This document shows positions 37,701 to 63,136 of a DNA stretch of 64,000 bases, one piece after another. Position 1 is the first letter of the stretch; each line of letters begins with the position of its first letter. The stretch comes from Actinoplanes sp. L3-i22 (GTDB taxonomy: Bacteria; Actinomycetota; Actinomycetes; Mycobacteriales; Micromonosporaceae), in the NCBI RefSeq assembly GCF_019704555.1, contig NZ_AP024745.1, positions 7,634,501 to 7,698,500 on the forward strand, read 5' to 3'. The notes beneath the pieces are model-generated. The model had not been told where the DNA came from. It did not search any database and was given only the letters and a program-made list of their open reading frames with translations. Position numbers and translations under genes: made by a program.

Positions 37701-40700
37701 CTACGGAGTCTGTTCGCAGTTCAGATCCGGGTAGTACGTCTGCATCAGCTCCAGGTACAGCGCGCCCAGCTCCTCGCGGGCGCTGCTCGCCTCCGGCATC
37801 CGATCCGGCACCGGGATCTCCCGCCGCTCGCCGTCGATCGTCATCCAGGCCCGGACCACCCGCCCTTCGGCGCGTTCCACGGTCAGCTGCGGCCCGGGGT
37901 CCCGCGGGGCGACCGGCTCCAGGGTCATCGGCAACTGCGGCGCATCCCGGAACAGCAGATCGGCCTGCTCCCGCGGTTCGAGGCCGTCCTGCCCGACCCC
38001 GAGCGGCTCGGGCCGGTCCTGGTCGTGCACGAGCGGCTCGGGCCGGCCCTGATCGTGCACGAGCGGCTCGACCGGGCGGGGGTCCTCGTCGAAGAACGCC
38101 GGCGGGATCGCCGGGCCGAGGCCGCTCGGCTGTGCGAGCACGGGCGCGGAGCCGAGCACGGACGCAGGCGCGGGCGCTGAGCCGAGCACGGGACCGAGCG
38201 CGGGCGCGTTGGCGGGCAGGGGCGGCTCGTTGACCACCTCGATCAGGCGGGATCGGCCGTCGAGGACGACCCGGTTCCGGGGCGCCGCGATCGCGCCGCC
38301 GGTCGAGCCGCGTAGTGCGGTGAGCGCGTCGGCGAAGTCCTGCTGGACCGCGTCCCGGTCCAGGCTGAGCAGGGTGAGCCGGTGGGTGTCCGGCACCCCG
38401 AGCGACCCCAGCAGGACGTGCAACTGGGCGGGCGTGTGAGCGACGATCCGCTCGGCGCCGCCCGGATCCCGCACCGCCACCAGCACCGCCGGCCGCTCCG
38501 CGGTGGCGGTCGCGTCCCGGTGGACCAGGACGGTGGTCCGGCCGGCGGTCAACGGGATCTGCCTGAGGTCGAGGGTCCCCCAGTCCTCGCCGGTCAGCAG
38601 CGCGACCAGGCCCGGCGGGTCGTCCGGAGCCGCGTCACGCCGGCGCTGGTGCACCACCGCGGCCGATTCGCCGGCGTCCCGGGTCTCGGGCGGGACGATG
38701 ACGATCTCGGGACGTGGCTGGTCATTATCGGTCAGCGGGTCATCGGTCGGCGCGCCCACAATCGTCGGTGGGACGTATCCGCCCCGGGCCGGAGACCCGT
38801 GGGACCGCAGATCCGGCACCTCGTCGTCGGAGAGCTCGTCGTCGCTGTTCGTGATGACGAACCGCGGCTCGTCGGTATCCGTGAGCTCGTCGTCGGTGTC
38901 CCCGTCCGAGATGACGAACCGCGGCTCGTCGTCGCCGACCAGCGCGGCCGCCGGGTCCGTGGTGACGATCTCCGCAGCCGGGGTGGCGGTGACGATCTCC
39001 GCAGCCGGGATCGCGGGGACGATGTCCGGGGCGGCCGGTGGCGCGGCTGGCGCGTCCTGGCCGCCCATCGGGCCCATCGGCACGTAGGTGGCCGGCGGCG
39101 GGACGGCCCGCACGACCGCCCGGTCCGCCCACATCTCGTTGATCGCCCGCTGGGCCCCGGCCGTCCCCTCCCCGACCCGCCGGGTGAGCCAGGTCCACGG
39201 TGACAGCGCCGGGACCGACGGCACCGGGGCCGGGTTCGCCGTCGCGTCCAGGCTCAGCCCGGCCGGGTCCAGCGCGCTGAGCGCGAGCAGCGCCCCCGGG
39301 CTGAGCACGGACAGCGTGCCGGCCCGCCCGGTCAGGTACAACCGCAGGTCGAAGCGGTAGACCCGGAACGGCCGCCGCTGCTCGACGTTGCGTTCGGCGA
39401 CCGCGCTGGCGCTGATCTCCAGGGCCCGTTCGGTCTCGTAGCCGACGCCCGGGCCACCGGCGAACTCGGCCTTGTCGTCCAGGCCGAACCGCTGGTTCGA
39501 GCCGCCGGCGACGCCGCCCCGCGCCTCGTACTCGAATCCGCTGTGGTGCGACCCGCTGGTCGCGGTCTCGGTCTGCTGGTAGCTGCGGCCCTTCATGGTG
39601 TCGCCGAGCGCGACGTCCGCGCCGGTCACCTCGTCGTGGATCTGCCAGTAGTGCCCGGCCTCCACGTCGACCCGGACGGTCAGCCCGGTGCCGGGGATCC
39701 GGTAGCCGCCCGCGCCGAGCATGGTGTGCAGCCGGGTACGCAGCATCGCGTCGTCGGCGCCGCCCTTGACCAGGGTCCACAGGTCGGAGCCGAAGCCCGA
39801 GCCGGCGACCTGGTGGGCGGTGCCGGCCAGCAGGTTCGCCGGCCGGTTCGTCGCGGGCAGGCTGACCGCGCCGGCCCAGGTGCCGATCAGCTCGGCGATG
39901 TTCAGCTGGGTGAGCGGGTGCAGCGACGCGTCGTCGAGCAGCACCGCGTTGCGCCGCGCGCGGGCCGACCCCGGCACCGCCCGGTCGGCCGGCAGATCGA
40001 TCCAGCCGGGCACCGGACGACCGGCCGCCGGGATCGGCGCCCGGACCGGGCCGGCCAGCGCGGTCCACCCGGCGTCCGCCCCGGCCGGCCGGACCAGGAA
40101 GTCCGGCACCAGCAGGCGGGCCGAGCCGGTCAGCCGCACCGGCTCCTGGCCCGTGCCGCGGGTGACCCGCCACTCCCAGACCCGCAGCCGGTTCTCGTGC
40201 CAGAGCTCCCGGGCGCCCGCCCCGACGCCGAACAGGTCGCCGGCGCCCACCACCAGCCCGCGGAACACGTTCCCGGCCAGCCGCAGGACCTCCGGCTGCT
40301 GCCGGGTCAGCGCGATGTCGACGGTGAAGGTGAGCGGCAGCCGGAACTCGTACGAGCTCCGGCCGCCCTTGCGGAAGATGTCCTTCACGGACGTCTCGGT
40401 GGTGCTCTCCGACGCGCCGCCGTACCCGGCCTCGACGGCGACCTGCCCGCCGCCGAACTCCGGGATCATCGGGAGGTTGTTCTCCGCCGAGCGCGCGTGT
40501 TCCAGCCGGCGGGCGCCGCCGCTGATCCCGCCCTTGACCTTCCAGCTGCGCGACGCGGAGACCGAGTCGCCGCTGGTGCCCTCGGCACGCAGGGTCAGCC
40601 CGACGTCGGCGCGCGGCCGGGCGTCGGCGGCGTCCCCCTCCCGCGCCCGGACGTTGAGGTAGAGGAACCGGGTGCCGTACGGCGTGATGATCGGAATCAG

Positions 40701-43700
40701 ACCGCTCACGCCGGAGCCGGTCAGCGCGAAGTAGCGGTTCTCCAGCGCCCACGAGGTGAACCGGCGGATCAGGTTGCGCCGCAGCGAGTCCGGGGCCAGG
40801 TCGTCCCGGTCGATCACCCCGTGGTCGTGCAGCTCGTCGAGGATCACGTCGACCAGCCCGTGGTGGGTGAGCAGCTCGGGGTGCCCGACGGTACGGAACA
40901 GCGCCGGGTCGATGACCGTCACGCCGTCCACGGTGTCCGGGACCGCCGTGTGCCCGGGCAGGCCCAGGTCGGTGGCCCGGCGCTCGGGCAGCACGAAGTC
41001 GACCGCCGCCCGCATCCGCAGGTACCGGCTCACCTGCTGGGTACGCCGCAGCCCGGTGGCGCCGGCCGGGGCCGGGTGGATCGGCAGGCTCGACCACCGC
41101 TGCAGGGTGACCTCGAAGATCGGGTCGGCCCGGTAGCCGCGGACCGGCCCGCTGTACGTGGCCCGGCTGACGTCGATGGTGCCCCGCGCGTGCCCCTCGC
41201 CGTGACCGCGCCCGGCCTCCCACGCGCCGGACCCGCCCATCCGGCCGAGATATTCGACGAGCTCGACGTGCTGCGTCTCGGGCAGCGCCCGCGAATGCTG
41301 CTGGGGCTGGGCCTGCGGCGCGTCCGGCTCCGCGGCGCGGGTCGGGAAGCCGCCGCCGGCCGAGACCTTGACGCTCCCGCCGTGCGAGCGGCCCGAGGAC
41401 AGCTCCACCGACTGGTTCGACATCGCGTACTGCTCGATCTCGATCTCGGTGGTCGGGTCGATGATCGGGCGGACCTCGGCCGGCGGGATCCGCAGCCGCA
41501 GCCGCAGCGCCTGGTGGTGCAGCCCGTCGTCGGGCAGCGCGATGATCCAGCCGTGCTCGTCGCCGGCCTCGGCGAAGTGCGCGCTCCACTGGCTCGGCAC
41601 GCCGGCCGCCCACAGCTGCGCCGGCCACCGCATCGGGTCGGCGCGCCAGTCGTCGCCGAGGTGGTTGAGCTCGGCGTAGGCGTCCGCCGCGGCCGCCACC
41701 AGCTCCGGCATGACCAGGAAGTTCGGCAGTACGGCGCCGGTGCCGTGCCGGTCGAACCGGACGTGCCCGGCGGCCCAGTCGGCGGCGGTCGCGGCCGTGG
41801 TGTGCCCGGTCGTCTCGATCTCGGCCATCGGCACCGCGGCGGCCGGCCGGTACTGCTCGGGGTGGGCGAAGATCGCCACCACCGCGTCGGGATGGTCGCG
41901 CACGTCCTCGGCCGCGACCGGGTCCGCGGCCGGCGGCACGGTCGCGAGCGGGTCCGCGGCGGCCGGCGCCGGGACCCAGCCGATCCGGTACCGGTGGGTC
42001 CGGGACCCGGCCCGGATCGTCGCCTCGAAGGTCAGCAGGTAGTGCAGCTGGTCGACCTGCCCGGTGGTCTCGGTCCGCCGGTACAGCTGCACGTCGTCGC
42101 TGATCGCCCGGCCGCTGTCGCGGGAGTGGTCGTAGCCCACCTCGATCTCCGGCGCGGTGATCCGCCGCCGGTCCGGGGTGCGCACCACGAGGGCCCCGTC
42201 GACCCCCGCCCCGCCGCTGAGCGAGTCCCCGACCGACGCCTCGCTCGACTCGCCGACCAGCGAGCGGGTGTTGACGTCCATCGGATACCGCGAGCGCCCG
42301 GCGATCCGCTGCTCCAGCCGCCCGGTCAGCAGGATCCGGACCGTCCGGCCGCCGATCCGGACGTCGAAGCGCAGCCCGGCCAGCGACCGGCTCAGGTCGG
42401 CCTCCAGCGCGTCCCGGCCGGCGTGCGCGCGCACCACCTTGACCGCCTCGGCCGGCAGGTCGGCGTGGCCGGTGATCTGCCGCAGCGCGGTCAGGATCGT
42501 GGTGGACACCCGCTCGGCGCCGGGCAGCCGCAGCGTGGTGGCCGCGCCCATGCCCCGGCGGGCGGCCAGCGGCCGCGGCTCGTACGCGGCCGGGGTGGCC
42601 CGCAGCCGCGGCCGGGCCTGCGGGGTCACCGTGCCGGGGGCGATCCGGCCGGGCGGCACGGCCGTGCCCGGCGCGGTCCGCCGCTCGCCGAGCAGCCGGT
42701 CCAGGTCACGTTCGGCGCGCGCGGCGGCGCCGGGCGCCGGTTCGGGCCGGGTCCGGGCCGGCTGCCCGGCGAGCAGCCGCCGGCCGGTCATCGCCGTCTC
42801 GAAGTCGGCGCGTTCGTCGACCGGCACGCCGAACTCGGTGGTCAGCCGCTGCTCGATCGGCTCCGCACCGACGTTGCCGTGCGCGGTCAGCACGGCCCGG
42901 ACGGTGACCCGGAACCGGGACTGGTCGGCCTCGCGCTTGAGCACGGTGTGGTTGGAGATCTTCTCGCCGAGCTTGGCGCCGGTCTCCCGGCTGTGCCCGG
43001 CGTGCAGGCTGCCCTCGATCGAGCCCTGCACCCGCGGGCCGGGGTAGTCCTCGGCCGGCCGGTGGGTGCGCAGGCCACTGGCGCCGCCGGAGATCTCCAG
43101 GCCGACGCCGCTGGTGCCGGCCCGGCCCTGCGAGCCGCCGGCGCCGATGCCCTGGTCGTCGCGGACCGCGACGGCCGGGGTGTCGCCCAGGTACTCGATC
43201 TCCAGCGGTTGCAGGTCGAGGTGCAGCCGCATCCGGTGGCGGCCGAACCGGCCGTCCGCGGTGATCTCGTCGGAGATGTCGCCGCCGTTGAGCAGCTGCC
43301 GGTTGCGGTTCAGCACGGCCCGCTCGTTCAGCAGGCCCCGGACCGCCTCGCTGACCAGGTGCGCCGCCGCCTCGGCGCCGGTCCGCGGGGTGAGCCGGGC
43401 GGCCAGGTCCAGCACCAGCGGCCGGAGGTTGATCGCGTTGAGCACCTCGTGCGCCCAGGACGACGTGCGCTCGCCGGTGTTCGCCGGGGGCGCGGACGCG
43501 ACCGGTGGCGCCGCGGTCGGCCGGACCGTGGCGGCCTCGGACGCGGTGTACTGCGCGGGGAACTGCGCGGTCACCTCGAACCGGGCGGCCGGGACCGGAT
43601 GGATGCCCTGGTGCGCGCCGTCGACCGCGACCCGGATGTCGATCCCGGCCCGGAACCGGTTGGTGCCCTTGACGAACATCTGCCGGCCGGCGACCACCCG

Positions 43701-46700
43701 CCAGGCCTCCGAACGGCTGTTCTTGGTGCCCGCCTCGAACGACACCGGGAGCCCGGTGGTCCCGCGCGCCACGTGCTCGAAGAACCGCAGGAACAGCAGC
43801 TCGACGCCGAGCCCGAGACTGCCGGAGAGCTCACCGGCGCGCTCCGCGGCGACCTCGGTCGACCCGAAGTTGACCTTGAAGACGGTCGGCTCGTCCCGGC
43901 CGGGCGGCGGCAGCGCGTTGGCGTCGTTGAGCGACAGGTGCAGCGACACCACGCGGCCGCCGGCCGCGAAGTGCAGACCCTCGTGGAAGGCCCGGTCCCA
44001 GCGCTCCAGGAACTCGTCGCGCTCGGTGTCGCGGCGCGCCCCGGTCGGCGGCACCTGCCGCAGCAACGGGCGCAGCTGCCGGATCACCTCGGCCGTGATC
44101 GGCTCGCCGGCGAGCAGCGCGATCGCGGCGGCGGCCTGCTCGACCGTGCCGGGCGCCGGGTCGAGCCGGGTGTCCCGGACGCTGAACTGCCCGAGCGCGC
44201 CCTGCTCGACGTACCAGGGCAGGCCCGGCTCGGGCGGGGCCGGCGGAACGACCGGCGGGATCACGACCGGCGGCGGCGCCAGCGGATGATCGACCACCGG
44301 CTGCCGGCCCGGCGTGGCAGCCGACGACGGCCCCGGCTGACCGATCCCGATCACCGGCGCGGCCGGCGGCACGGCCGAGCTCGACGGCGGGGCCGGGTCG
44401 GTCGACTCGGACGGGACCTCGCCCAGATAGAACACCTCGAAGTCGAGGTCCTGGTCGGTGAACTCCTCCACCCGGGCCCAGATCCCGGCCGGGACGTCCA
44501 CTCCGGGCAGGCCGACCGCGACCGGCGCCCGCGCGCTCACCGACTCGTCGATCCGGGCGCGGATCAGCGTCGCCCAGTCCGCCGGAACGCTCGCCGGACG
44601 AGCCCAGAGCCCTTCCTCGCGCAGCTCCAGCACCCATCCGTCGGGCAGGTCCAGCACCTCGACGACACCGTCGGAGTCCGGCTCGGCCGGGGCGGGCTCG
44701 GCCGGCTCGGCGGGGGCCGCCGGGGCCAGCGCCGCGTACCGGCCGCCGTCGTGCAGCACATGGACCGAGGGCAGCCCCGGGTCCCCGGTCGTCGCCAGCA
44801 CGGCGCCGTCCGGACCGATTTCGACCACTCGCCACCCCAGCGCGAGCGCCGCCGCGCGCAGGAGCAGCGGATCGGTCCACGACGTGCGCAACTCCGGGTT
44901 CCGCAGCGCGTCCAGGACGAACTGCGCCGGGCTCGGCAACGCGGTCTCCTCCTGCGCCGCCCGCAGATACTCGATCAGGGTCCGGCGCCCGGGGTCAGCC
45001 GGATCCGCGGTGTTGGCGACCGCCCAGGTCAGCGGCACCGGGCCACCGGAAACCAGCTGGGCGAAGTCGGGTGGCAGATAGTCCAGGATCGCATCGCCGA
45101 GCGCGTCGAACACCCCGAGACCGGCCCCGCCGCGCCGGGCAGCCTGAATCCGCCGCATGGTCAGATCCCGCAGGCCGGCGACCGGGTCACCCTCTGCGGT
45201 CGCCGCCGGGCCGCTTCCGCTTGCGCTTGCTTCCTGGGGTACGGCCGCAGCCGTCACGTCCAGCCCCTGCGCCCCGGCCGCGGCCAGCAGCGCCACGAAC
45301 GCGTTGTCGGCACCCGCTGGGACCTCGACCACCGCCCGGTCGCCGGCTACCCGGCCCGGCGCCGACGGCTCCCCCGGAGCGGTCCGGCCGAGCGCGACGC
45401 CCTCGACCGCCGGGTCGTCCTCGGCGACGACCCCGTCGAACGCGTGGACCACCGGTGGGTCGTCCAACCGAAGTCCCGGGACGCGGTCGTTGACCACGTC
45501 CCAGGATTCGTCGCTCTCCTGCGGCGGGGCGTACTGGTACAGGTGCCACGCCCGGCCCTCCTCGGTGACCAGCGTGATCTCCCGCGACCGGCCGGTGCCC
45601 ACGACGATCCGGGAGCGCGGCGCGACGATGCTGCCGCCGGCCGGTCCGCGCAACCGCGCCAGGGCGGTCGCGAACCCGCCCGGCACCGGCTGGGTGTCGC
45701 AGCTGACCAGGGTGAGCTGCAGTTCGTCGGGGACGCCTTGGGCGCGCAGCAGTCCGAGCAGCTGCTCGGGGGTCCGGGGCACCCGCACCTCGGAGTCGGG
45801 CCCGGCCGGGCGGACCGCCACGTCGACGAGCGGGCGCTCCGGCGTGGAGTCCGGCGACTCGTGGACCAGCAGCACCGTGCGGGCGTCGGTCAGGGTGATC
45901 GCCGAGTGGTCCAGGGCCGCCCACTCCGCCGACGGGAGCAGCGAGAGCAGCGAGGGCGGGCCGGTACGGTCGGCGGCGGCACGCCAGTGCGTGTGCACGA
46001 CGGGCGCCGGCTCCGCCGTACCCAAGGAATCTGATCTTGGGGAAGCGAAGCCGGCGGCGGCCGGCGGCGCCTGCGCACCGGCGGACCCGGCGCCGATCCT
46101 CGGCGCTCGCGGCGGGGGCGGCAGGATGCGCAGCGGGGCGGGCCGGGGCGGCAGGGCGGCGCGGATCGGCGCCGGACGGGTGCGCGGCAGGTAGATCGGC
46201 AGGGCGAGGTCGGGTTCGAAGACGCCGCGGGCCGAGCGGATCCAGCGCGGGATGGCCGCGAGCCGCCGCAGCAGCTCGGGCACGCCCCCGGCCAGCTCGA
46301 AGTTCCGCAGATCGAAGTTCGGCAGCAGACCGGCGAGGGCGGGCGGCGCCGGCCGGGTTCGCGGGCCACCGGTGTGCGGGGCGGGCGCGGTGATCGGCGG
46401 ATGCATCTCGCCCGGCGTGGTGGCGCTGAGTGCCAGCAACTCCTCCGGCACGTCGACGATCAGGGTGCCGGCCGCACCGGTCAGGTAGAGCGTGGCCCGG
46501 AACTGGAAGACGTGGTACGGCTGGCTCTGCTCGACGTTGCGCTCGGCGACCGAGCTGCCGGCGATCTCGAGGGAGCCCTCGGTGGCGTAGTCGTAGCCGA
46601 TCTCCCCGCCGAGGTCCGGCTTGAAGTTCGGCCGGCGCCACTCCAGGCTGCTGCCGCCGGCGCCGACCACGAACCCGTGCCGGGAGCCGGCCGACGTCTC

Positions 46701-49700: not shown

Positions 49701-52700
49701 GTCCGCCGCGGTCGACACCAGCAGCGGCCGGGCCTGCGGGATCGGCACCCGCGCCGGGCGGCGGCCGGGGACCGGGAGGTTGGTGGCCCGGGTCTCGCGG
49801 GGCCCGAACCGCGCGTCCAGGCCGGCGTCGGCGGCCGGGTCGACGGTCGCCGCCGGCCGGGGCGCGAGCGCCGGGGCCGGCACCCGCACGGTCAGGTCGC
49901 GGCCGGTCAGCGCGTGCTCGAACCGCTGCCGCTCGGCGGCCGGCACGCCCATCTCGGTCACCAGGACCTCGACGACGTCCGGGATCCCGGCGTGCCCGTG
50001 GGTGGTCAGCTCGGCGCGGACCCGGACCCGGTAGCGGGCCTGCTCGGCCACCCGCTTGAGCACGGTGTGGTTGGCCGACTCGGCGTCCAGGCCGCCACCG
50101 GTGGTGCGGTCGATCCCGCCGCCGAGCGTCGCCTCGATCGCGCCACGGGTGCGCAGGTCCGGTTCCGGCAGGTCGGACTTGAGGCCGGACGCCCCCGCGG
50201 TGCCCTTCAGCCCGACACCGCTGGCGCCCTTCTGCCCGTCCGAGCCGCCCGCGCCGATGCCGTGGTCGTCCCGCACCGCGACCCCGCCGGTGGTGCCGAG
50301 ATAGGTCACCTCGACCGGGACGAGCCGGAGCCCGAGCCGCACCTGATGTTCCAGGATCGGCACCCGGTGACCGTGGATCCGGCGCTCGGCGGTCAGCTCA
50401 CCGGAGATGTCGCCGCCGGTGAAGAGCCGGCGGTTGCGGTTCAGCGCGGCCCGCTCGTTGAGCAGCTGGGTCACGCCGGCCCGGGCGATCGAGGTGGCCG
50501 CCTCCGGGCCCAGCGCCGGGACCAGGGCCCGGTGCCACGCGGTGATCAGCGGTTCCAGGTCGGCCGCGGTGAGCACCTCGTGCGCCCAGGACGGCTCGGC
50601 GCGACCCGCCTCGGGCAGCGGCGCCGCGGGCACGGCGGCCGGGTCCGGGCGGATCGCCTCGGCGGCCTCGGTCACGTACTGCGCCGGGAACTGCGCGGTG
50701 AGCCGGTAGTCGGCCGGGCGCAGGACGGCGTGCGCGGTGCTGGCCACGCCGTTCAGGTGCACCTCGAACCGCAGGCCGGAGTCGAACCGGGCGCGCCCGC
50801 TGACGAACATCTGCCGGCCGGCGACCAGGCGCCAGTCCGACGAGCGGGAGCCGCCCAGCGCGGCCGAGGCGGTCAGCGGGATCCGCAGCTGGCCCCGGGC
50901 GATGTGCTCGAGGAACGCCAGGAACAGCAGGGTCGCGTCGGCGCCCGGCCCGGCCTCGTGCTCGCTCGCGTGGCCGGCCGAGATGTCCGACGACGAGAAG
51001 TTGACCTTGAAGACCGAGGGCTCGCCCTTGACCGGCGCCGGACCCGGCCGGCTGTCGTCGAGCCGGACCCGCACCCAGACCAGCCGGTCGCCGGCCCACA
51101 GGTGCAGGCCCTGGGCGAGCGCGGCGTCCCAGCGGTCCAGGAACTCGTTGAACGCCGTCTCCCGGCGGCCGGTCGCCCGCGGCGGGACCGCCAGCAGGTC
51201 GGTCAGCTCGGCGGTGATCGCGTCGCGGATCGCGGCCCGGGCGGCCTCGTCCAGGTCACGCACGTTGGCCAGGCTCCGGTGGAGCCGGGCGGCGACCCCG
51301 GCGGCCAGTCCGGCGGCGGTCCGGCCGGGTCGCATCTCCGCCGACCCGACGCCGATCTGGCCGAGGGCGCCGTGCTCGACGTACCAGGGCAGCCGGGTCG
51401 CCGGAGCCGGACCGGCCGGCGGCGCGGGCGGCGGCGGCGCGGGCGGCAGGCCCGGCGGCGGGGCGGCGACCGGCACCCAGGCCTGGTAGTGCTGGGCCTC
51501 CCGGCTGTACGCCACGTAGATCGGCTCGGTGCCGGGCTGGTCGTGCATCACCACGGGCTGATCGCCGGCGTCCGTACGGACCTGCACCAGGGTGCGGCCC
51601 AGCGCGATGCCGAGGACCGCCATCAACGCGCTGCCCAGGTCGACGCCCTCGTCGCCGAGCTCGGCGGTGGCCGGGCCGGTCGAGCGCCAGTTCCAGTCCA
51701 GCGCGGCGGCGGCCAGCTCGGCCGGCAGGTCGGTGCCGGGCGGCAGGCCCGGGAACGCGATGAGCAGGCGGTTCACGTACTGCGTCACCGGCGAGTCGGG
51801 CACCGCGCCGAGCAACGTGTCGACCACGTGCCACTGCAGGACGGCCGCGATGTCGTCGATCCGGGGGCCGGGGGCCGCGGCCGGCGTACGCAGGGCGCGC
51901 AGCCGGGCCAGTGCGTCCTCCGGCATGCCGGGCAGCGCCGCGACCACCTCGGGGGCGCTGACCGCGGTGGCCAGCAGCAGGCAGCGTTCGCCCGCGCCCG
52001 GCACGTCGACCGCGGCGCCCGCCGGGGCCACGATCCGGGTCTCGGGCAGCAGCGTGCGGAACTGCTCGTCGCCGCGCGTGGTCCGGACCCGGGACGGGCC
52101 TGCCGTCGTCGGCCCGGGCAGGTACTGGCCGCTCCGGTTGCCGGTCAGACGGATCCGGACGTGCTCGCGGACGGCCCGGGAACGCTGCTCCCGGCCCTGC
52201 CGCACGAGCGCCGCCGCGGCGGCGAGCTCGTCCGGGTCCTGCGGCGCCCGGGGCGCGGCGCCGCTGATCGGAATCGGACGGTCGACGCCGTGGTAGTGCC
52301 CGTCGACGCCGGGCTCGCCGACGATCGCCTCGAGCAGTTGCAGATGCCGTGGGCGCAGGCCGCGCCACGCCAGGCCGGCCTCCTCCGGCAGCTCGTGGTA
52401 CCGGCCGAGCAGGCTGCCCGGGACGTTCGCCCGGCCCGGCGTCGCCCGGCTCCGGGACTCGTCGCGCAGGCCGAGCTGGTGCAGCAGCTCGTGCGCGGCG
52501 TCGACCGGGCGGGCGTCGGCCGGCCAGTGGTAGAGGTCCATCGCCGCGCCGGGCTCACGCACGGTGATCGGCAGGTGCGCGCCGTCGGCCGACTCCACCC
52601 ACTCCATCGTGACGTGCAGCAGGTCACCGCTGGTGGGCAGCCGGTAGCCGGGCTCGTTCAGGTAGGTCGCGACGCCCCGCTCGGCGACCGCGCGCAGGGC

Positions 52701-55700
52701 CGGGTCGGCCAGGTGCGCCCGGATCGTCACGGCGGTGACCATCCGATCCCGGTAGGCGACCCGCCGGACGGCGAAGTAGGACCGCACCAGCTCCGGCTCG
52801 CCGTCCCGGGTGCTGGTCGGATCGGTCCAGCCGTGCGACCGGACCGCCTCCGGGGCGTCCTCGAACGCCTCGATCCAGGCCGTGTCGGCCGGATCGACCC
52901 GGACCGGGAGATCGCCGACCAGGCCGACCCGCAGCGCACCGCGGGTCGCCGGCGGCATCGCCCGGACCAGGTCGGCGACCACGTCCAGCACCGCGGCCGG
53001 CACCTCGCGGCCGGGCACGCCCAGGGTCAGCGTGCCGATCACGTCCGGGGACGCGGCACGGATCCACTCGGCGGCGGCCGGGTCGGGGTAGGCCGGGCGG
53101 GCCCAGACACCGCCGGCCAGCTCCTCCAGCAGCCAGCCGCCGGGCAGCGTGACGTTGGCTTCCACGGCCTGGCCGGCGGGCACGACCCACTGATGGGTGG
53201 CCCACGGGCGCAGGGTGAGACCGCCGTCGGCGTCCACCGGGACGACCCGGACCGACTCCGGCAGCGGCGCCGTGGCACGGGCGTTGCCGGGCACCCGGAC
53301 GGCGAGGCCCAGCTCCGCCGCGAGCGGCCCGGCGGCGTCCACGGTCAGGTCGTCGGCGAGCAGCTCACGGCCGATCAGCGGGGCCGGGCGGCGACGGTTG
53401 CGGGAGGCGATCCCGAGACGCTCGCCCTCCAGCCGCGCGCCGGACGGACCGAGATGCCAGTAGGCGTGCGCCAGCCGCACCGCGTCGGACGCGAACGTCC
53501 GGGGGCCGACCGGGATGCCGTCGCCGGGCTCGATCGGGCCGGCGGTCTCCGGGAAGATCCGGGTGATCAGGTCCAGCAGACCGGAGCGGTGGGCCGGCGC
53601 CAGCGTCGCCGCCCAGGCCTCGAGCTCGCCGAACGGCATGGTCGCGGCGCGACCGGGCCACGACGCCACCGGCGGAAGCCGAAGAACCCCTTCCGGTGCG
53701 CTGATCGCTTCCGGTCCGGCGGTCCCTCGCGGTTCGCTCCATTCCTTCGGTACGCCGATGGCCGCCGGCACGTCCTCCCGGAGCGGTCCCGCCGAAGCCG
53801 AATCCGCGCGGGCCCGCCAGGCGGCACCCAGCTCCTGCCGGGCCACGACGAGGGCCTGCCGGGCCGTCTTGACGTTCCGCCTCGCCGTGACCACGGCCGC
53901 CCGGTCGGCGGGCAGCCCCCGGGTCAGCGCCGCGACCGTCCGCAGCTCACCGGGCGACAGCGCACCCCTCGACCGGAGGGCGCCGAGCTCGCTCTCGTGC
54001 CCGGCCAGCCGATCGACCGCGACCCGCCACTGCCGGACGGCCGCCCGCGCCCTCGCCGCCACGGTCGCCTCGTGCCGGCTCGCCTGCGCGAACGCCTCCT
54101 GCTCGGGGCTCCGCGCCGGCCGTACCCCGGCCGAGCCCGCCTTGACCGGGGCCGCCTTGACCGGGGCCGCCTGGGCTTGCTCCAGCCGGGCCCGGGCCGC
54201 GTCCAATCGTTGCCGGGCGGCGGCCAGGTGCTGCTCCGCGCTCTGCAGGCGCTGCTCGGCGTCCCGCACCCGGGCGCCGCTCACCTGCTGCGCCCGGGCC
54301 CAGATCAGGTCCCGGCCGGTCGCCGCCCGGGTCGCCCGCTGGGCCGGGTCCAGCCGGGGCCGCCACCGCAGGCCGGTCAGCACCCGCTGGTCCCGCCGGA
54401 CCCGCTGCGGCAGGTCCCGCTGGACGTCCCGGGCCCGGGTCGCCTCGGACCGGGCCGCCTCGACGTCCCGGCTCGCCTGATCGACCGCCCGATCGTGCCC
54501 GGCCAGCGGTCCGCCGCCACCCAGCGCAGGGGTCTTCGCCGGTTTCGGGGCCGGCGCGGGTTCAGCCGCCGGGCCGGGTTTGGCCGCGTTGATCGCGGCC
54601 AGGCGGTGCTGGGCGGCGGCGAGGCGCTGCTCGGCGTTGGTCAGGCGCTGCTCGGCGGCGCGGACCACGGTTCTGGTCGATCGCTGGTCGCGGACCCAGG
54701 TCAGGTCCCGGCGGGTCGCGGCCCGGGCCGCGTGCTGCGCGGGGGTGTCCGGCTTGCGGCCTCTCAGGATCTGCTGGTCCTGCCGCTCGCGCCGGGGCAG
54801 GTCGCGCTGGATCTCCCGGGCGCGCAGCAGGTCGGTGCGGGCGCTCGCCACCTCGTGGGTCGCGGCCCGGATCGTCTCGGGCACGCCCGGCTTCCCGGTC
54901 GCCGGCTTGCTTCCCGCGGCCGGCTTGCCCTCAACCGCCGGCCTGCCGCCGGCAACCGGCTTTCCCTCGACAACCGGCTTTCCGTCGACAACCGGTTTGC
55001 CGTCAACGACCGGTTTGCCGTCAACGAGCGGTTTGCCGTCAACGAGCGGCTTCGTGGCAACCACCGGCTCGGCGCCGGCAACCGGCTTGGTGCTGGTGGA
55101 AGGCTTGCCTCCGGTGGTTTCGGTGGCGGGCCGGGCGGCCTCGGCCCGCGGCGCGCCGGAGCCGTCGTGCGTCCCGGAGGTGGCCCGGGGCGGAGCCGGG
55201 CGTTCCGGGGCGACGACGGTGACCTCGGAACGGCCGGGCCGGGCCACGGTCGTGCCGGACGGTCCGGGCCGTTCCGAGGTCGCGGTCAAGGCATCGGAGC
55301 CACGCCGCCCACCGCCGGTCAAGGCATCGGAGCCACGCCGCCCACCGCCGGTCACCGCCTCGGGACCGGGGCGGCCACCGCCGGGCAGGGCGCTGCCCGG
55401 GTCGGGCGTGCGGGTCGGGCCGGGGATCCGGCTCGGGTCGTGGGCGGCCGGGGCGGCGTCGCGGTTCGGGCGGGCCGGCAGGTGGCTCGGGTCGCCGCCG
55501 GTGTTGCGGGTGGTGGCCGGTGGGGGCTCGGCGATCCCGGTCTTCGTGGACTCCTCGGTGAACCGGATGGTCCGGGTCGGGGCGGTCGTGGTGTGCGAGC
55601 CCTCCCCACGGTCGGCCAGTCCCAGGCCACCGGATCCGCCGCCACCGCGCGGGGCGCCGCCGGGGCGGTCGCTGCCGGGGCGCGGGCCGGCGACCGGGCC

Positions 55701-58211
55701 GCCGTGGCCGCCCATGTCCGGGGCGCGCAGGGTCAGGTCGCCGGAGGCCGGGTCGTAGCGCAACGCCCGTACGTCAATCCTGCCTGGATTTTGATTGACC
55801 AACCGACCGTCGGCACCGATCGCGAGCTGCGGCCGGTCGTCACCGGTCGCCGCGAACCGGACCTCGCCGGGCCTACCGGTCCCCGGCTCGATCTTGATCG
55901 CGGTGAGCTTCTCGCCGGCGCCGCGCGGCACCGGGGTCGCGTCCGGACCGTTGTCGCCGAACCGGAAGTAGCGGCTCTCCGCCTGCGGCGTGGTGACCGC
56001 GGCGCGGCCCGGCTCCGCGCCGCGGACCACGGTCCAGCGGCCGGTGTCCGGGTCGCGGATCAGCACGCCCGCCTCGCCCGGGCCACCGACCCGCTCGACG
56101 TGCGCGGTGCCGTAGGGCGTCCCGCCGTGGAACTCGCCGATCCCGTCCGGGCCGAGCCGGGCGTATCCGGTCTCGCCGTTCTTCGGGGGCGAGGTGGTCA
56201 TCGCGGCCGGGTCGTGCTGGTAGGTCTCCAGGTGCGTGCTGCCGTCCGCGTCGCGGCGCAGGAACTGGAACGGCCGCGTCCCGCTGGACGACGTCACCGG
56301 GCCCCGCGCCGGACCGGCCGGCGCGCTGTCGTGCACGGTGACCGTGGTGACCTCGAAGCGGTGACTCTGCGTGTTGTAGGTCAGGATCCGGTCGCTGCGG
56401 CTGCCGTAGCCGAACTCGGCGCCCTGCCGGTCCCAGGCCCGGTTGGTGTACACGCTGTCGCCGACCACGGCGGGGTCGTGCGCGGTCTCGCCCGGGCGCA
56501 GGGTGATCTCGGTGGCCTTGCCGGTCTGCGGGTCGATCTCGTAGAAACGGGTCTTCGACGGCGTGCTCGCGGACTCCGGGACGTCGCGGACCGGGGCCGG
56601 GTTGCCGCCGAGCCGGTTGCCCTCGCCGGGGAACTGGTTCCGGGTCTGCAGGGTGACCAGTTCCCGCTGGTCACCGGTGACCCGGATGGCCTGGCGGACG
56701 ACCGGTTCGGCGGCCTGGGTGCGGGCCAGCTGCAGTTCGTGCCGGGCCTTGGCGTCCTTCCACAGGCCGGCCAGTGGGTCCGATTTGTCGCCCTTCGAGG
56801 TGGTCGGCGGGGTCTCCGCGACACCGGGGGACGTCTCGTTGTGGGTGGCGGAAGTGGCCGTGCGCCCGGGCGTGGCGGTCGCGCCGGGACCCGTGGAGGT
56901 CCGGGTAACGGGCGGCCCTTCCGCAGCCGTTGTCGTGCCCCGGGTGATCGGCGGGGCATCGGTCGCCGCCGTCCCGCGGACCCCGCCCGGCGGCGTCACG
57001 CTCCCCCGGTTCACCGTCACCGGCTCGTGGACGCTGCCCCGGGTCCCCGGCAACTCCCCGACCGGCACGGTCCCCCGGGTATTACCGGGTGTGATCCCGC
57101 TCCGGGCCGGATCCACCGGCCGCGCGACCACCGGCACGTCCCCGCCACCGCGCACCACGACCGGCGCCGGCGTCGCCACCCGGTCCGGCGCGATCGGGGT
57201 ACGCACCCCGGTCCCCCGCGGCACCAGGTCCGGCGTCTGCAGCCGGATCTGGTTCCCGTTGACCCCGAGCGGGTCGAGCCGCCCGATGTTGGTGTGCGGC
57301 ACCCCCGTCGACAGGTGGATCTCGTCGATCGCGGGGGTCCGGACCCCGGTGACCTGACCGACCCGGCCGGGGATGCCGTCCACGCCCCGGGGCACCAGTT
57401 CCGGCCGCGAGCCGATCCCGTGGATCCCGCCGTAGAGTCCGCCGAACCCGGCCGCCATCAGCCCGTCGGCGACCGTGTAGTGGTTCTGGACGTGCTCGAT
57501 GCTCGCGCCGATCTGCCGCGCGACCCAGTCGGTGCCCACGCCGACGCCCGCGCCGACCACCGCGTTGCGGCCGAACAGGACGGTTTCCTGGGCCAGCGCC
57601 GGCAGGTTGCGGTAGACGCTCGCGCCGTAGTTGACGCCCCGGGCGATCTGCACGATGGCCGGCGAGTTGTGGAAGACGTCGGCGACGAACGTGACCGACC
57701 GCATGAACGGGGTCGCGACGAACCGTTCCAGGTTGGTGAGGAACGTGCCGAGCGCCTCGAACCGGCTCACCACGTTGGTCACGAACGTCGAGATCCGGGC
57801 CAGCTGGGTGGCGAGCCGGCTGGCGATACCGATCAGCACCGCCCCGATCGCGAACGTCTCGGCCAGCATGGTGGCGAAGCCGAACAGGGTCAGGATGGCC
57901 ACCGCGATCGCCATCGCGGCCTCCTGCCGGCGCAGCTCGGCGAGCGCCTCGTCGACCTGCTTGGCGTAGCGGTGCAGGGCGTACCCGATCTCCCAGCAGT
58001 TCCGGGCCTGGGCCACCAGCAGCGCGTACACGCTGTTCTCGCCGGCCGCGAGGACCATGTGGGCCTGGAACGCGGCCTTGCCGTTCCACGTCGCGAACAA
58101 CGCGTTGCCGTCGTTGAGCATCGACACGGCGGTCTCGAACAGGGTGTCGCCGGCGGTGATGAAGTCGTTGCCGAGCTGGACGATCGGCCCGGTGTCGAAT
58201 TCGGCGCCCAC
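37701..58211 (-). CDS. Giant 6,836-aa WXG100-headed, ESX-linked protein with possible metzincin-, OTU- and C80-like protease sites
   Basis: One uninterrupted frame. The GTG start at 58211 is 2 nt after the eccC stop, so translation is coupled and export by this ESX system is likely. Residues 1-100 form a WXG100-like helical hairpin (W42-N-G44), then hydrophobic helices to about 135. About 300-1110 is low-complexity and beta-rich, with repeats. About 1115-1470 holds three related coiled-coil stretches. HELLHQLGLRD (1907-1917) is a metzincin-like HExxHxxGxxD site. Two ~2,300-aa units follow (about 2065-4230 and 4290-6680). Each has a possible OTU-like domain, a LPWYVE..GALGQ module (from 2274 and 4664) and a C80-like domain. 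Unit 1 has C2077/H2241 and H4117/C4171; unit 2 has A4304/R4491 and H6564/L6617. I count only four Cys. It may belong to the giant proteins databases call lonely-Cys. Substrates and toxicity are unknown. Confidence 0.85.
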   Translation of the reverse strand: MGAEFDTGPIVQLGNDFITAGDTLFETAVSMLNDGNALFATWNGKAAFQAHMVLAAGENSVYALLVAQARNCWEIGYALHRYAKQVDEALAELRRQEAAMAIAVAILTLFGFATMLAETFAIGAVLIGIASRLATQLARISTFVTNVVSRFEALGTFLTNLERFVATPFMRSVTFVADVFHNSPAIVQIARGVNYGASVYRNLPALAQETVLFGRNAVVGAGVGVGTDWVARQIGASIEHVQNHYTVADGLMAAGFGGLYGGIHGIGSRPELVPRGVDGIPGRVGQVTGVRTPAIDEIHLSTGVPHTNIGRLDPLGVNGNQIRLQTPDLVPRGTGVRTPIAPDRVATPAPVVVRGGGDVPVVARPVDPARSGITPGNTRGTVPVGELPGTRGSVHEPVTVNRGSVTPPGGVRGTAATDAPPITRGTTTAAEGPPVTRTSTGPGATATPGRTATSATHNETSPGVAETPPTTSKGDKSDPLAGLWKDAKARHELQLARTQAAEPVVRQAIRVTGDQRELVTLQTRNQFPGEGNRLGGNPAPVRDVPESASTPSKTRFYEIDPQTGKATEITLRPGETAHDPAVVGDSVYTNRAWDRQGAEFGYGSRSDRILTYNTQSHRFEVTTVTVHDSAPAGPARGPVTSSSGTRPFQFLRRDADGSTHLETYQHDPAAMTTSPPKNGETGYARLGPDGIGEFHGGTPYGTAHVERVGGPGEAGVLIRDPDTGRWTVVRGAEPGRAAVTTPQAESRYFRFGDNGPDATPVPRGAGEKLTAIKIEPGTGRPGEVRFAATGDDRPQLAIGADGRLVNQNPGRIDVRALRYDPASGDLTLRAPDMGGHGGPVAGPRPGSDRPGGAPRGGGGSGGLGLADRGEGSHTTTAPTRTIRFTEESTKTGIAEPPPATTRNTGGDPSHLPARPNRDAAPAAHDPSRIPGPTRTPDPGSALPGGGRPGPEAVTGGGRRGSDALTGGGRRGSDALTATSERPGPSGTTVARPGRSEVTVVAPERPAPPRATSGTHDGSGAPRAEAARPATETTGGKPSTSTKPVAGAEPVVATKPLVDGKPLVDGKPVVDGKPVVDGKPVVEGKPVAGGRPAVEGKPAAGSKPATGKPGVPETIRAATHEVASARTDLLRAREIQRDLPRRERQDQQILRGRKPDTPAQHAARAATRRDLTWVRDQRSTRTVVRAAEQRLTNAEQRLAAAQHRLAAINAAKPGPAAEPAPAPKPAKTPALGGGGPLAGHDRAVDQASRDVEAARSEATRARDVQRDLPQRVRRDQRVLTGLRWRPRLDPAQRATRAATGRDLIWARAQQVSGARVRDAEQRLQSAEQHLAAARQRLDAARARLEQAQAAPVKAAPVKAGSAGVRPARSPEQEAFAQASRHEATVAARARAAVRQWRVAVDRLAGHESELGALRSRGALSPGELRTVAALTRGLPADRAAVVTARRNVKTARQALVVARQELGAAWRARADSASAGPLREDVPAAIGVPKEWSEPRGTAGPEAISAPEGVLRLPPVASWPGRAATMPFGELEAWAATLAPAHRSGLLDLITRIFPETAGPIEPGDGIPVGPRTFASDAVRLAHAYWHLGPSGARLEGERLGIASRNRRRPAPLIGRELLADDLTVDAAGPLAAELGLAVRVPGNARATAPLPESVRVVPVDADGGLTLRPWATHQWVVPAGQAVEANVTLPGGWLLEELAGGVWARPAYPDPAAAEWIRAASPDVIGTLTLGVPGREVPAAVLDVVADLVRAMPPATRGALRVGLVGDLPVRVDPADTAWIEAFEDAPEAVRSHGWTDPTSTRDGEPELVRSYFAVRRVAYRDRMVTAVTIRAHLADPALRAVAERGVATYLNEPGYRLPTSGDLLHVTMEWVESADGAHLPITVREPGAAMDLYHWPADARPVDAAHELLHQLGLRDESRSRATPGRANVPGSLLGRYHELPEEAGLAWRGLRPRHLQLLEAIVGEPGVDGHYHGVDRPIPISGAAPRAPQDPDELAAAAALVRQGREQRSRAVREHVRIRLTGNRSGQYLPGPTTAGPSRVRTTRGDEQFRTLLPETRIVAPAGAAVDVPGAGERCLLLATAVSAPEVVAALPGMPEDALARLRALRTPAAAPGPRIDDIAAVLQWHVVDTLLGAVPDSPVTQYVNRLLIAFPGLPPGTDLPAELAAAALDWNWRSTGPATAELGDEGVDLGSALMAVLGIALGRTLVQVRTDAGDQPVVMHDQPGTEPIYVAYSREAQHYQAWVPVAAPPPGLPPAPPPPAPPAGPAPATRLPWYVEHGALGQIGVGSAEMRPGRTAAGLAAGVAARLHRSLANVRDLDEAARAAIRDAITAELTDLLAVPPRATGRRETAFNEFLDRWDAALAQGLHLWAGDRLVWVRVRLDDSRPGPAPVKGEPSVFKVNFSSSDISAGHASEHEAGPGADATLLFLAFLEHIARGQLRIPLTASAALGGSRSSDWRLVAGRQMFVSGRARFDSGLRFEVHLNGVASTAHAVLRPADYRLTAQFPAQYVTEAAEAIRPDPAAVPAAPLPEAGRAEPSWAHEVLTAADLEPLITAWHRALVPALGPEAATSIARAGVTQLLNERAALNRNRRLFTGGDISGELTAERRIHGHRVPILEHQVRLGLRLVPVEVTYLGTTGGVAVRDDHGIGAGGSDGQKGASGVGLKGTAGASGLKSDLPEPDLRTRGAIEATLGGGIDRTTGGGLDAESANHTVLKRVAEQARYRVRVRAELTTHGHAGIPDVVEVLVTEMGVPAAERQRFEHALTGRDLTVRVPAPALAPRPAATVDPAADAGLDARFGPRETRATNLPVPGRRPARVPIPQARPLLVSTAADGEPPALTARRGLGPATVLHLPGAERVAETVLAALHRHAGDAAYEPEAAEQVYARIGRSALEADLTRALVGVRFDVRIGARTFAVLLTGRIENRIDASTRYPMDVNHRALLGAGNEASLATGYSVEGGIGGSATMRRGEADRGTFPDVDLGYGRSWEDELTVGDAMQLYRRTETTGDVHELLYLLNFEATIRHGGATETHSIGWTPPAAAPGKGKGPALARPVPAAAVSASGGAVVGVLAVPVEYTPDAAESATADQMRPAAAPPAAFTADRVPFEQGVAGLFPTFAALPELVAAGARAYGNLNGHADTGDAHDPLHDWARDPMNWPAEVWALGVPSELAAHFTELVSADGWVLSLPDANGFRQAVRLRMRLPRTAATRVRSWAKGVEVEQYAMSAPTVKYTTAGAQKFAGKLGGGYNHLHEQAAPEVERRAEEAPHQEPMRFLGGVSAEGGLSYEPGHSTARNHGNLDITRATYEEAVDHYRGSPVFEVTALRWDDDVADTAETPVPPGGLPLHQPAPPAVSYQQFLTVHGGLEIILPERRAIDLGLRADPDRGTPAVRQRDVIDPRLLRATGHPERLDAGDVLPAIRRILTEQNLIDPGRPVPDRLDRALTRRYSGWALENRYFALTGTGVNAWIPVLTRFGTRWVYISVTAAEGPVTADRPRPRVSLTLRGEGQEGRSESRSRSFGKSWSVSGGDRVLDHEEMPQPPHNRGPEFGGAQGGVHGSYERSATRSEDTVEKDIYRAGVKVSHEFEMPLTFTVRIGITRQKPALVEAPLAGLGRLFRGAADLAGFGGWARRAGNAWHLPFFHWTNENALPAVRAGSVRLLVPSYLTVPHGAAAPRAGWTPLPHVPATPPAGRARWGDLAGRGRPLNAVLADNRTLHPLSTLPIARAVQQWAGLVTMPVRSRVPDPAARDAPAGLAGFATDLGLRLRSGASDSMLRTRMSRLLGAGGYQIPGTGITARLDVTGGQYWRDADGNPLAFVHKGRNYQQVKTAPAEETSAGSRHGFVVGAGGSSLEWRRPNFKPDLGGEIGYDYATEGSLEIAGSSVAERNVEQSQPYHVFQFRATLYLTGAAGTLIVDVPEELLALSATTPGEMHPPITAPAPHTGGPRTRPAPPALAGLLPNFDLRNFELAGGVPELLRRLAAIPRWIRSARGVFEPDLALPIYLPRTRPAPIRAALPPRPAPLRILPPPPRAPRIGAGSAGAQAPPAAAGFASPRSDSLGTAEPAPVVHTHWRAAADRTGPPSLLSLLPSAEWAALDHSAITLTDARTVLLVHESPDSTPERPLVDVAVRPAGPDSEVRVPRTPEQLLGLLRAQGVPDELQLTLVSCDTQPVPGGFATALARLRGPAGGSIVAPRSRIVVGTGRSREITLVTEEGRAWHLYQYAPPQESDESWDVVNDRVPGLRLDDPPVVHAFDGVVAEDDPAVEGVALGRTAPGEPSAPGRVAGDRAVVEVPAGADNAFVALLAAAGAQGLDVTAAAVPQEASASGSGPAATAEGDPVAGLRDLTMRRIQAARRGGAGLGVFDALGDAILDYLPPDFAQLVSGGPVPLTWAVANTADPADPGRRTLIEYLRAAQEETALPSPAQFVLDALRNPELRTSWTDPLLLRAAALALGWRVVEIGPDGAVLATTGDPGLPSVHVLHDGGRYAALAPAAPAEPAEPAPAEPDSDGVVEVLDLPDGWVLELREEGLWARPASVPADWATLIRARIDESVSARAPVAVGLPGVDVPAGIWARVEEFTDQDLDFEVFYLGEVPSESTDPAPPSSSAVPPAAPVIGIGQPGPSSAATPGRQPVVDHPLAPPPVVIPPVVPPAPPEPGLPWYVEQGALGQFSVRDTRLDPAPGTVEQAAAAIALLAGEPITAEVIRQLRPLLRQVPPTGARRDTERDEFLERWDRAFHEGLHFAAGGRVVSLHLSLNDANALPPPGRDEPTVFKVNFGSTEVAAERAGELSGSLGLGVELLFLRFFEHVARGTTGLPVSFEAGTKNSRSEAWRVVAGRQMFVKGTNRFRAGIDIRVAVDGAHQGIHPVPAARFEVTAQFPAQYTASEAATVRPTAAPPVASAPPANTGERTSSWAHEVLNAINLRPLVLDLAARLTPRTGAEAAAHLVSEAVRGLLNERAVLNRNRQLLNGGDISDEITADGRFGRHRMRLHLDLQPLEIEYLGDTPAVAVRDDQGIGAGGSQGRAGTSGVGLEISGGASGLRTHRPAEDYPGPRVQGSIEGSLHAGHSRETGAKLGEKISNHTVLKREADQSRFRVTVRAVLTAHGNVGAEPIEQRLTTEFGVPVDERADFETAMTGRRLLAGQPARTRPEPAPGAAARAERDLDRLLGERRTAPGTAVPPGRIAPGTVTPQARPRLRATPAAYEPRPLAARRGMGAATTLRLPGAERVSTTILTALRQITGHADLPAEAVKVVRAHAGRDALEADLSRSLAGLRFDVRIGGRTVRILLTGRLEQRIAGRSRYPMDVNTRSLVGESSEASVGDSLSGGAGVDGALVVRTPDRRRITAPEIEVGYDHSRDSGRAISDDVQLYRRTETTGQVDQLHYLLTFEATIRAGSRTHRYRIGWVPAPAAADPLATVPPAADPVAAEDVRDHPDAVVAIFAHPEQYRPAAAVPMAEIETTGHTTAATAADWAAGHVRFDRHGTGAVLPNFLVMPELVAAAADAYAELNHLGDDWRADPMRWPAQLWAAGVPSQWSAHFAEAGDEHGWIIALPDDGLHHQALRLRLRIPPAEVRPIIDPTTEIEIEQYAMSNQSVELSSGRSHGGSVKVSAGGGFPTRAAEPDAPQAQPQQHSRALPETQHVELVEYLGRMGGSGAWEAGRGHGEGHARGTIDVSRATYSGPVRGYRADPIFEVTLQRWSSLPIHPAPAGATGLRRTQQVSRYLRMRAAVDFVLPERRATDLGLPGHTAVPDTVDGVTVIDPALFRTVGHPELLTHHGLVDVILDELHDHGVIDRDDLAPDSLRRNLIRRFTSWALENRYFALTGSGVSGLIPIITPYGTRFLYLNVRAREGDAADARPRADVGLTLRAEGTSGDSVSASRSWKVKGGISGGARRLEHARSAENNLPMIPEFGGGQVAVEAGYGGASESTTETSVKDIFRKGGRSSYEFRLPLTFTVDIALTRQQPEVLRLAGNVFRGLVVGAGDLFGVGAGARELWHENRLRVWEWRVTRGTGQEPVRLTGSARLLVPDFLVRPAGADAGWTALAGPVRAPIPAAGRPVPGWIDLPADRAVPGSARARRNAVLLDDASLHPLTQLNIAELIGTWAGAVSLPATNRPANLLAGTAHQVAGSGFGSDLWTLVKGGADDAMLRTRLHTMLGAGGYRIPGTGLTVRVDVEAGHYWQIHDEVTGADVALGDTMKGRSYQQTETATSGSHHSGFEYEARGGVAGGSNQRFGLDDKAEFAGGPGVGYETERALEISASAVAERNVEQRRPFRVYRFDLRLYLTGRAGTLSVLSPGALLALSALDPAGLSLDATANPAPVPSVPALSPWTWLTRRVGEGTAGAQRAINEMWADRAVVRAVPPPATYVPMGPMGGQDAPAAPPAAPDIVPAIPAAEIVTATPAAEIVTTDPAAALVGDDEPRFVISDGDTDDELTDTDEPRFVITNSDDELSDDEVPDLRSHGSPARGGYVPPTIVGAPTDDPLTDNDQPRPEIVIVPPETRDAGESAAVVHQRRRDAAPDDPPGLVALLTGEDWGTLDLRQIPLTAGRTTVLVHRDATATAERPAVLVAVRDPGGAERIVAHTPAQLHVLLGSLGVPDTHRLTLLSLDRDAVQQDFADALTALRGSTGGAIAAPRNRVVLDGRSRLIEVVNEPPLPANAPALGPVLGSAPAPASVLGSAPVLAQPSGLGPAIPPAFFDEDPRPVEPLVHDQGRPEPLVHDQDRPEPLGVGQDGLEPREQADLLFRDAPQLPMTLEPVAPRDPGPQLTVERAEGRVVRAWMTIDGERREIPVPDRMPEASSAREELGALYLELMQTYYPDLNCEQTP
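38001..38070. repeat. Tandem 30-bp repeat near the 3' end of the giant gene
   Basis: Two 30-bp units (38001-38030 and 38031-38060) differ at two bases and are followed by the first 10 bases of a third. On the minus strand they encode PLVHDQGRPE and PLVHDQDRPE-like decapeptides in a Pro-rich linker before the C-terminal 90 residues. Confidence 0.75.
38170..45344 (-). repeat. Tandem unit 2 of the giant protein (about residues 4290-6680)
   Basis: This copy has the same order as unit 1: OTU-like region, Pro-rich linker, LPWYVEQGALGQ module, C80-like domain. Shared segments include GRQMFVKG, FPAQY, VAVRDDQGIGAGGS, YPMDVN and WALENRYFALTGSGV. Both candidate cysteines are replaced (A4304, L6617), and the OTU His is Arg4491. 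Edges are approximate. Confidence 0.65.
45520..52019 (-). repeat. Tandem unit 1 of the giant protein (about residues 2065-4230)
   Basis: This copy keeps candidate catalytic pairs: C2077 in GERCLLL with H2241 in AQHYQAW (OTU-like), and H4117 in LLVHESPD with C4171 in LVSCDTQP (C80-like, spacing 54, near the 45-49 of clostridial and MARTX cysteine protease domains). The beta-rich module between them mirrors unit 2. Edges are approximate. Confidence 0.65.
54890..55070 (-). repeat. 18-bp repeats encoding KPVVDG-type hexapeptides
   Basis: About ten degenerate 18-bp units encode KPLVDG, KPVVDG, KPVVEG, KPVAGG and similar hexapeptides (about residues 1048-1108 of the giant protein). They probably form an extended linker before the coiled-coil region. 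Confidence 0.75.
55288..55353. repeat. Exact 33-bp tandem duplication in the giant gene
   Basis: 55288-55320 and 55321-55353 are identical 33-bp units encoding an 11-residue GGGRRGSDALT repeat on the minus strand. Perfect identity points to a recent duplication by slippage. Confidence 0.85.
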
Positions 58212-62256: not shown

Positions 62257-62730
62257 CTAGCTACGGATGACCGGGTCGTTGGGGTCGGTGCCACCGGTGG
62301 CCGGGGCCGGGGTGGGGGTGGCGGTGCCGTTGAGTCCGTTGAACATGTCGGTGAAGTTCTTCAGCAGCTCGGTCTCGGCCTCGTTGAAGCCGGCCAGCAC
62401 CGCCTTCACCCCGGCGGCGAGCACGTTGAGCACGCCGTCCTCGGCGTCGAAGTCCTTGTCGTCGTTCGCCGCCTTGGTCCCGAACAGCGCGACCGCGATC
62501 GCGTTCCACCGGTCGATGAAGTCGGTGGCCTCGCGCTGGGACGCGCCGGCCCAGGACAGCTTGAGGCCGGACAGCCCGCCGTTGATCGACGAGATGCTGT
62601 CCGCGACCGCCTTGGCCTGGGTCTGCAGCGCGGTGACGGCGGTGTCCAACTCGGCGCCGTGCACCTCGATCCGGGTGGCGACGTCGTAGTCGTGCTCGCC
62701 GCCGGCCGAACCGAAATAGTCATGAGACAT
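62257..62730 (-). CDS. WXG100-family protein with long C-terminal tail (EsxA/CFP-10-like ESX substrate)
   Basis: Predicted 157-aa helical-hairpin protein. The WxG turn is LSWAGAS (about residues 59-65), flanked by long helices (HGAELDTAVTALQTQAKAVADSI and REATDFIDRWNAIAVALFG). At 157 aa it exceeds the usual 95-105: residues about 95-125 form a further helix, and 130-157 a Thr/Pro/Ala-rich tail. A YxxxD/E-type signal could not be fixed. The start overlaps the smaller partner by 11 nt, the usual pairing for a secreted heterodimer. Confidence 0.85.
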   Translation of the reverse strand: MSHDYFGSAGGEHDYDVATRIEVHGAELDTAVTALQTQAKAVADSISSINGGLSGLKLSWAGASQREATDFIDRWNAIAVALFGTKAANDDKDFDAEDGVLNVLAAGVKAVLAGFNEAETELLKNFTDMFNGLNGTATPTPAPATGGTDPNDPVIRS

Positions 62731-63025: not shown

Positions 63026-63136
63026 CGCCGAACACCATTCTCTCAAGCGGCGTGGAAACGATTCTCAGGCTTGCCAGGAAACTTATTTTCATGGCACGAT
63101 GCCTTTGCTGGACACGTATTCTGGAGGTAATCGATA

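Follow-up and report, generated by a model that had tools for sequence, protein, structure and literature searches.

How a very large actinobacterial toxin could exit one cell and enter another is the question raised by a gene of Actinoplanes sp. L3-i22. The gene lies in a 64,000-nucleotide stretch of DNA, referred to here as the window (contig NZ_AP024745.1, C1:7634501-7698500 of a 12.0-Mb single-contig genome), directly after the eccC gene of an ESX (type VII secretion) locus. Its product, hereafter the giant, suggests a testable answer, in which a WXG100 head would serve for export, a pore within the same chain for entry and enzymatic domains as the cargo. The reading we favour, with slightly less than even confidence, is that the giant is a type VII-exported toxin-like protein whose two modules would each form a single-chain beta-barrel pore in a target membrane, passing a probable zinc-protease cargo. 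It builds on the coupling to eccC, on an N-terminus that is WXG100-like both by sequence and as modelled, and on the two modules, which are collinear and recur in other giants. The corresponding features are:

37701..58211, minus strand: coding sequence (CDS) of the giant, 6,836 amino acids (aa), GTG start, stop included
58214..62248, minus strand: eccC, 1,344 aa, EccCa and EccCb fusion (TIGR03924 755 bits, TIGR03925 716 bits)
57816..58211, minus strand: WXG100_2-like export domain, residues 1-132 (PF25547, AlphaFold2 (AF2), Foldseek and VIA-align)
46338..51440, minus strand: module A, residues 2258-3958 (module hidden Markov model (HMM) 2046 bits, partly a self-match as the HMM was built from eight copies including modules A and B)
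39192..44264, minus strand: module B, residues 4650-6340 (module HMM 2065 bits, likewise partly a self-match)

The initial annotation had described an uninterrupted 20.5-kb gene beginning 2 nt past the EccC stop. This was borne out: the 6,836-codon open reading frame (ORF) was open throughout on the minus strand, which that annotation had left unnamed, and 2 nt separated its start from the stop of a full-length eccC ending at 58214. A purine-rich, ribosome-binding-like sequence (GAGGAGGAG) was located 6-14 nt upstream of the GTG, inside the end of eccC. The frame is coding and not a product of chance, because of its codon-position GC content (GC1/2/3 of 0.77/0.56/0.95, with GC3 at 0.90-0.98 across all 14 segments sampled), its probability of staying open given the base composition (~3e-38) and its protein homologues, which covered residues 1777-1917 and 2273-6409 by BLAST. 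A 4,053-aa ORF overlaps it on the plus strand (window 46374-58535); as a gene this was rejected as an artefact of the 76% GC, its GC peak sitting at codon position 1.

Of the WXG100-like head that had been proposed for the giant, the motif W42-N-G44 was found exactly in the sequence. PF25547 (WXG100_2) matched the N-terminus with 22.7 bits (E 1e-4), under the curated cut-off of 27. AF2 placed helices at residues 8-41 and 45-110 with W42-N-G44 in the turn between them (pLDDT 65-87 in blocks of residues 1-100, whole-model pTM 0.39). Comparison of residues 1-100 with a WXG100 hairpin, which had been set as a test, returned EsxA with a TM score of 0.83 on the target (E 0.16, Foldseek), and VIA-align ranked long-helix BAR domains above the WXG100-type matches. 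The N-terminus is thus predicted, from these models, to be a helix-turn-helix hairpin of WXG100 type. A YxxxD/E motif was absent after the hairpin, its single occurrence being at residue 245, and a search of the N-terminus against 5.8 billion proteins, restricted to the lengths of giants, gave 0 matches.

Upstream of the giant, eccC is accompanied by three genes of the WXG100 type, two on the near side and one on the far side of an EccA-like gene, and by a gene resembling EccD (84.3 bits against a cut-off of 94.95). Those beyond eccC that fall within the window are:

62257..62730, minus strand: WXG100 protein, 157 aa (PF06013 28.2 bits, cut-off 27.3)
62720..63046, minus strand: WXG100-like protein, longest ORF 108 aa, with YHDME close to its end (TIGR03930 36.1 bits, cut-off of 44.85 not reached)
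63778..64000, minus strand: 3′ part of the gene for an EccA-like ATPase (TIGR03922 229.6 bits, cut-off of 466.65 not reached)

The EccA-like ATPase is 887 aa long with a parallel beta-helix N-terminus, and its remainder lies outside the window. No match to EccB was found at the locus, nor was a mycosin, the nearest match (133 bits, below cut-off) starting at 7,737,913, ~37 kb past EccA. Other regions of the genome hold three EccB matches above cut-off, so membrane components may be borrowed from there, for which CpnT offers a parallel. Export would begin with the N-terminal hairpin, probably paired with one of the two WXG100-type neighbours, docking on EccC, as for CpnT with EsxE/EsxF.

CpnT is many times shorter than the giant and is encoded away from ESX-5. 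The giant further differs from it in that no TNT NAD-glycohydrolase domain was matched by Pfam, and in that its pore would sit in the modules rather than in the N-terminal domain. CpnT is an ESX-5 substrate (PMC8092274) and resembles the giant in its WXG100/EspB-like N-terminus, in the two esx genes nearby and in being a surface or exported toxin, export of the giant being predicted.

The beta-rich tandem modules of the initial annotation could be resolved into two homologous modules, A and B, which are collinear and 44% identical. A search with residues 2280-6660 of the giant, in which 744 candidates were scored, found three giants, and BLAST revealed the ~1,650-residue repeat. Twenty-two module copies were aligned; L031 (the same protein as P0001), G288, whose gene falls into three ORFs, the second reading of L032, and L030 with G473 (taken as one genome, with an N-terminus almost that of G333) were left out. 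Of the 22 copies, 20 were used in the AF2 alignment, P0002 and P0003 being excluded, and folding covered residues 5185-6340 of module B. This predicted four long hairpins:

42009..42293, minus strand: hairpin 3, residues 5307-5401 (strands of 38 and 52 residues)
41154..41441, minus strand: hairpin 4, residues 5591-5686 (strands of 35 and 34 residues)
40302..40604, minus strand: hairpin 5, residues 5870-5970 (strand of 35 residues, return arm split into shorter strands)
39327..39605, minus strand: hairpin 6, residues 6203-6295 (strands of 33 and 41 residues)

Residues alternated along the predicted long hairpins, a test for amphipathic membrane hairpins that depends on the model. Within unit 1 of module B, residues 4795-4825 (window 43737-43829) are hydrophobic and possibly helical, unlike the beta-hairpins of later units; the stretch was noticed by eye in several of the copies.

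Each module would consist of tandem units, each giving one long Gly/Ser/Thr-rich beta-hairpin (four predicted here, the rest extrapolated), and the hairpins of one chain would merge into one barrel, replacing oligomerisation. The predicted Gly/Ser/Thr-rich amphipathic hairpins recall those of beta-barrel pore-forming toxins (lysenin, aerolysin, MACPF, the pores of binary toxins), and the sheet of the module model aligned to single-chain Gram-negative outer-membrane barrels (AIDA-I translocator, OMPLA). Comparison of the module with beta-barrel pore-forming toxins gave no sequence match and no significant fold match. A search of the PDB with the module profile gave a single, meaningless match (E 0.55), and a module-half profile gave 0 matches among proteins whose length was 0.55-1.75 times that of the profile. 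Matches to ssRNA-phage maturation proteins in a viral fold library (E 5.5e-4, probability 0.11, TM 0.07) were judged to arise by chance from long sheets.

The same hairpins could instead be stacked as a soluble extended sheet, so that the modules of an ESX-exported, toxin-like giant would be a stalk, shell or adhesin reaching or binding the target. We regard this as possible but doubtful: in 7/8 hairpin arms the Gly/Ser/Thr/Ala content rose toward the tip, which recalls pre-stem hairpins, and the structural neighbours of the module model, although weak matches, were mostly barrels and pores, though phage fibre and maturation proteins led the viral list at meaningless scores.

If the modules are pores, they would build a membrane barrel in a new way, from tandem units in place of oligomers, and the giant would also be a type VII secretion substrate of extreme size. 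Oligomeric pore toxins contribute one or two hairpins per subunit, whereas the predicted hairpins of the giant are in tandem in one chain; a single-chain six-hairpin pore, if true, would be an architecture unlike the oligomeric pore toxins known to us. A fuller version, to which we give only tentative credence, is a one-gene delivery machine with its own translocon, a six-hairpin single-chain (pseudo-hexameric) beta-barrel that would push its own protease and toxin domains through.

The module was present in 3/40 genomes of the genus and 3/197 of the class, the own genome counted in both, and in 7/295 genomes of the genus of relative G162, two of which were already in the class set. In a species-genome collection, at least nine loci were found in Streptomyces, Streptacidiphilus, Actinacidiphila, Promicromonospora and Paractinoplanes, a lower bound since one search pattern was used. 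By HMM the module was full length or nearly so in other giants, except in L036 (two pieces) and the broken G288. Of the ten module-bearing genomes from the genus, class and G162-genus sets, eight encode it in frames that range from 5,784 to 19,630 codons, while the frames are shorter in G011 (1,825) and in G288 (1,652). The module frame of Promicromonospora had 1,907 codons, and it and that of G011 look like lone modules. A 1,791-aa ORF of Paractinoplanes polyasparticus (L027/L028 5335-10710) is nearly the module alone, without an export head, and is either a lone module or a remnant. The longest frame found was one of 19,629 aa (L069-L073, G162:C17:1916-60805); its N-terminus gave a WXG100_2 hit, and it contains a single module and three HExxHxxG motifs. 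One streptomycete's giant (L067-L068, G288:C1:8290285-8310000) adjoins an EccA-like gene and is interrupted, so that at least three ORFs make it up.

ESX genes were identified by BLAST at 9/12 of the relatives' loci (EccD reference named by eye, EccB reference borne out by profile search): EccC at G333, G473, G496, G311, G162b and G025, and EccA only at G288, L031 and L032. None was found at G162a or G230, where the contig starts close to the gene, or at L029, all of which falls within the giant. As G333 and G473 are closely related, these loci are not all independent. The 10,332-aa relative in G025 adjoins EccA, B, C and D genes and carries WXG100_2 (28.8 bits), glutamine deamidase (PF15644) and ADP-ribosyltransferase (ART, PF01129) domains above cut-off.

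Such a distribution bears on whether the giant is a weapon. It could be a structural or developmental surface protein of a filamentous host, displayed by ESX; the window protein has no recognised toxin domain and no immunity gene was recognised beside it, the screen for immunity families ending at the next gene on its strand, which resembles an NAD(P)-binding protein. This we consider improbable, given that a module-bearing relative has ART and glutamine deamidase domains and that so sporadic a presence is unlike that of a housekeeping structure. For the toxin-like giant that we favour, the lack of a recognised adjacent immunity gene and the toxin classes of its relatives make us lean slightly towards a non-bacterial target.

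Up to three protease types and long coiled coils had been suggested for the remainder of the giant. The segments concerned are:

53802..54884, minus strand: coiled-coil repeats, residues about 1110-1470 (by eye)
52242..52904, minus strand: zinc-protease-like domain, residues 1770-1990 (motif HELLHQLGLRDE from residue 1907)
45561..45998, minus strand: clan-CD-like cysteine-peptidase segment, residues 4072-4217 (Cys4171 retained)
38226..38654, minus strand: degenerate clan-CD-like copy, residues 6520-6662 (matches the preceding segment at 49% identity, E 2e-32; Cys lost)

Neither Pfam nor NCBIfam had a family above cut-off, including any C-terminal toxin domain, when the whole giant was searched as three pieces or as ten smaller pieces; ART was not detected by Pfam, and the coiled-coil repeats matched no significant family. 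The zinc motif is the protease assignment that its relatives support. The domain matched P0002 (E 6e-5) and G025 (E 7e-6) by BLAST, and HExxHxxG was present in 7/16 scanned proteins, several of them truncated by locus ends. The seven aligned members had invariant V, H, E, H, G, L and D; as they were chosen by the motif, it is the surrounding similarity (22-37% to the giant's domain) that counts as evidence. Searches of Pfam and the PDB returned no confident family, metzincin-like families matching weakly. Residues 1770-1990 therefore carry a metzincin-like HExxHxxGxxD motif in a conserved domain, a probable zinc protease judged from sequence.

The clan-CD-like segment matched weakly: across residues 4147-4204 the score was 10.1 bits (i-E 7e-4, in a small search set). 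In G025 this type reads AHG...CDTG, and an HMM for which seven such segments were used matched ten there; the clan-CD-like and OTU-like labels were given by motif, without Pfam support. An OTU protease, proposed by eye at 2070-2246 and 4370-4497, was not detected: an HMM of three OTU-like domains of G025 gave at best -2.2 bits, elsewhere, and the best mutual match among the three candidate segments had E 0.02, so OTU was dropped. When two further relatives were scanned for cargo, all matches stayed below cut-off (TcdA/TcdB-type glycosyltransferase 21.9/23.6 bits, lethal-factor-like 16.8/27.4 bits), and two parts of a third relative gave none at E 0.01; neither was used as evidence.

The lost Cys of the second clan-CD-like copy, the undetected OTU and the lack of EccB and mycosin matches at the locus would suit a partly decayed member that kept its export head and modules and lost most of its cargo. 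We hold this to be quite unlikely in view of 20.5 kb free of stops, the high GC3 in all sampled segments and the intact zinc motif.

In the pore reading, the flanking zinc protease and clan-CD-like segments (in relatives, the ADP-ribosyltransferase and glutamine deamidase) would be delivered or self-processing cargo, an arrangement resembling binary toxins in the enzymatic cargo of the giant's relatives.

Giant multi-toxin actinobacterial proteins are already known as a group, since Zhang et al. 2012 (PMC3482391) described gigantic actinobacterial proteins of >10,000 aa, up to the 13,652 aa of SACTE_5178, in which ART, OTU and MCF1-SHE domains occur together with caspase-like and lethal-factor-like metallopeptidase domains. 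The relative in G025 is similar in having ART, a zinc motif and, by motif, clan-CD-like and OTU-like domains. The portion of that description compared here makes no mention of a 1,650-residue module, a pore or ESX coupling (PMC3482391). Among the open-licence PMC papers listed, compared by title or start of abstract, none was recognised as dealing with this module or with a giant coupled to ESX. Relative to the literature compared, what is likely to be new is the module, together with its association with ESX loci and its modelled, likely pore fold.

The genome encodes one further giant, 4,781 aa long and adjoining another eccC (G000 C1:2562072-2576417, minus strand, L085). It had a WXG100_2 hit, the zinc motif HEIGHYLGLPDEYA and clan-CD-like and OTU-like matches; a module search of it found nothing. 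Near the ESX locus, a 1,679-aa protein (L011:7649-12688, plus strand) combines a Ser/Thr-kinase-like N-terminal part with a histidine-kinase C-terminal part. Short-period tandem repeats with units of 5-45 bases were present at window positions 5236-5555 and 9046-9214.
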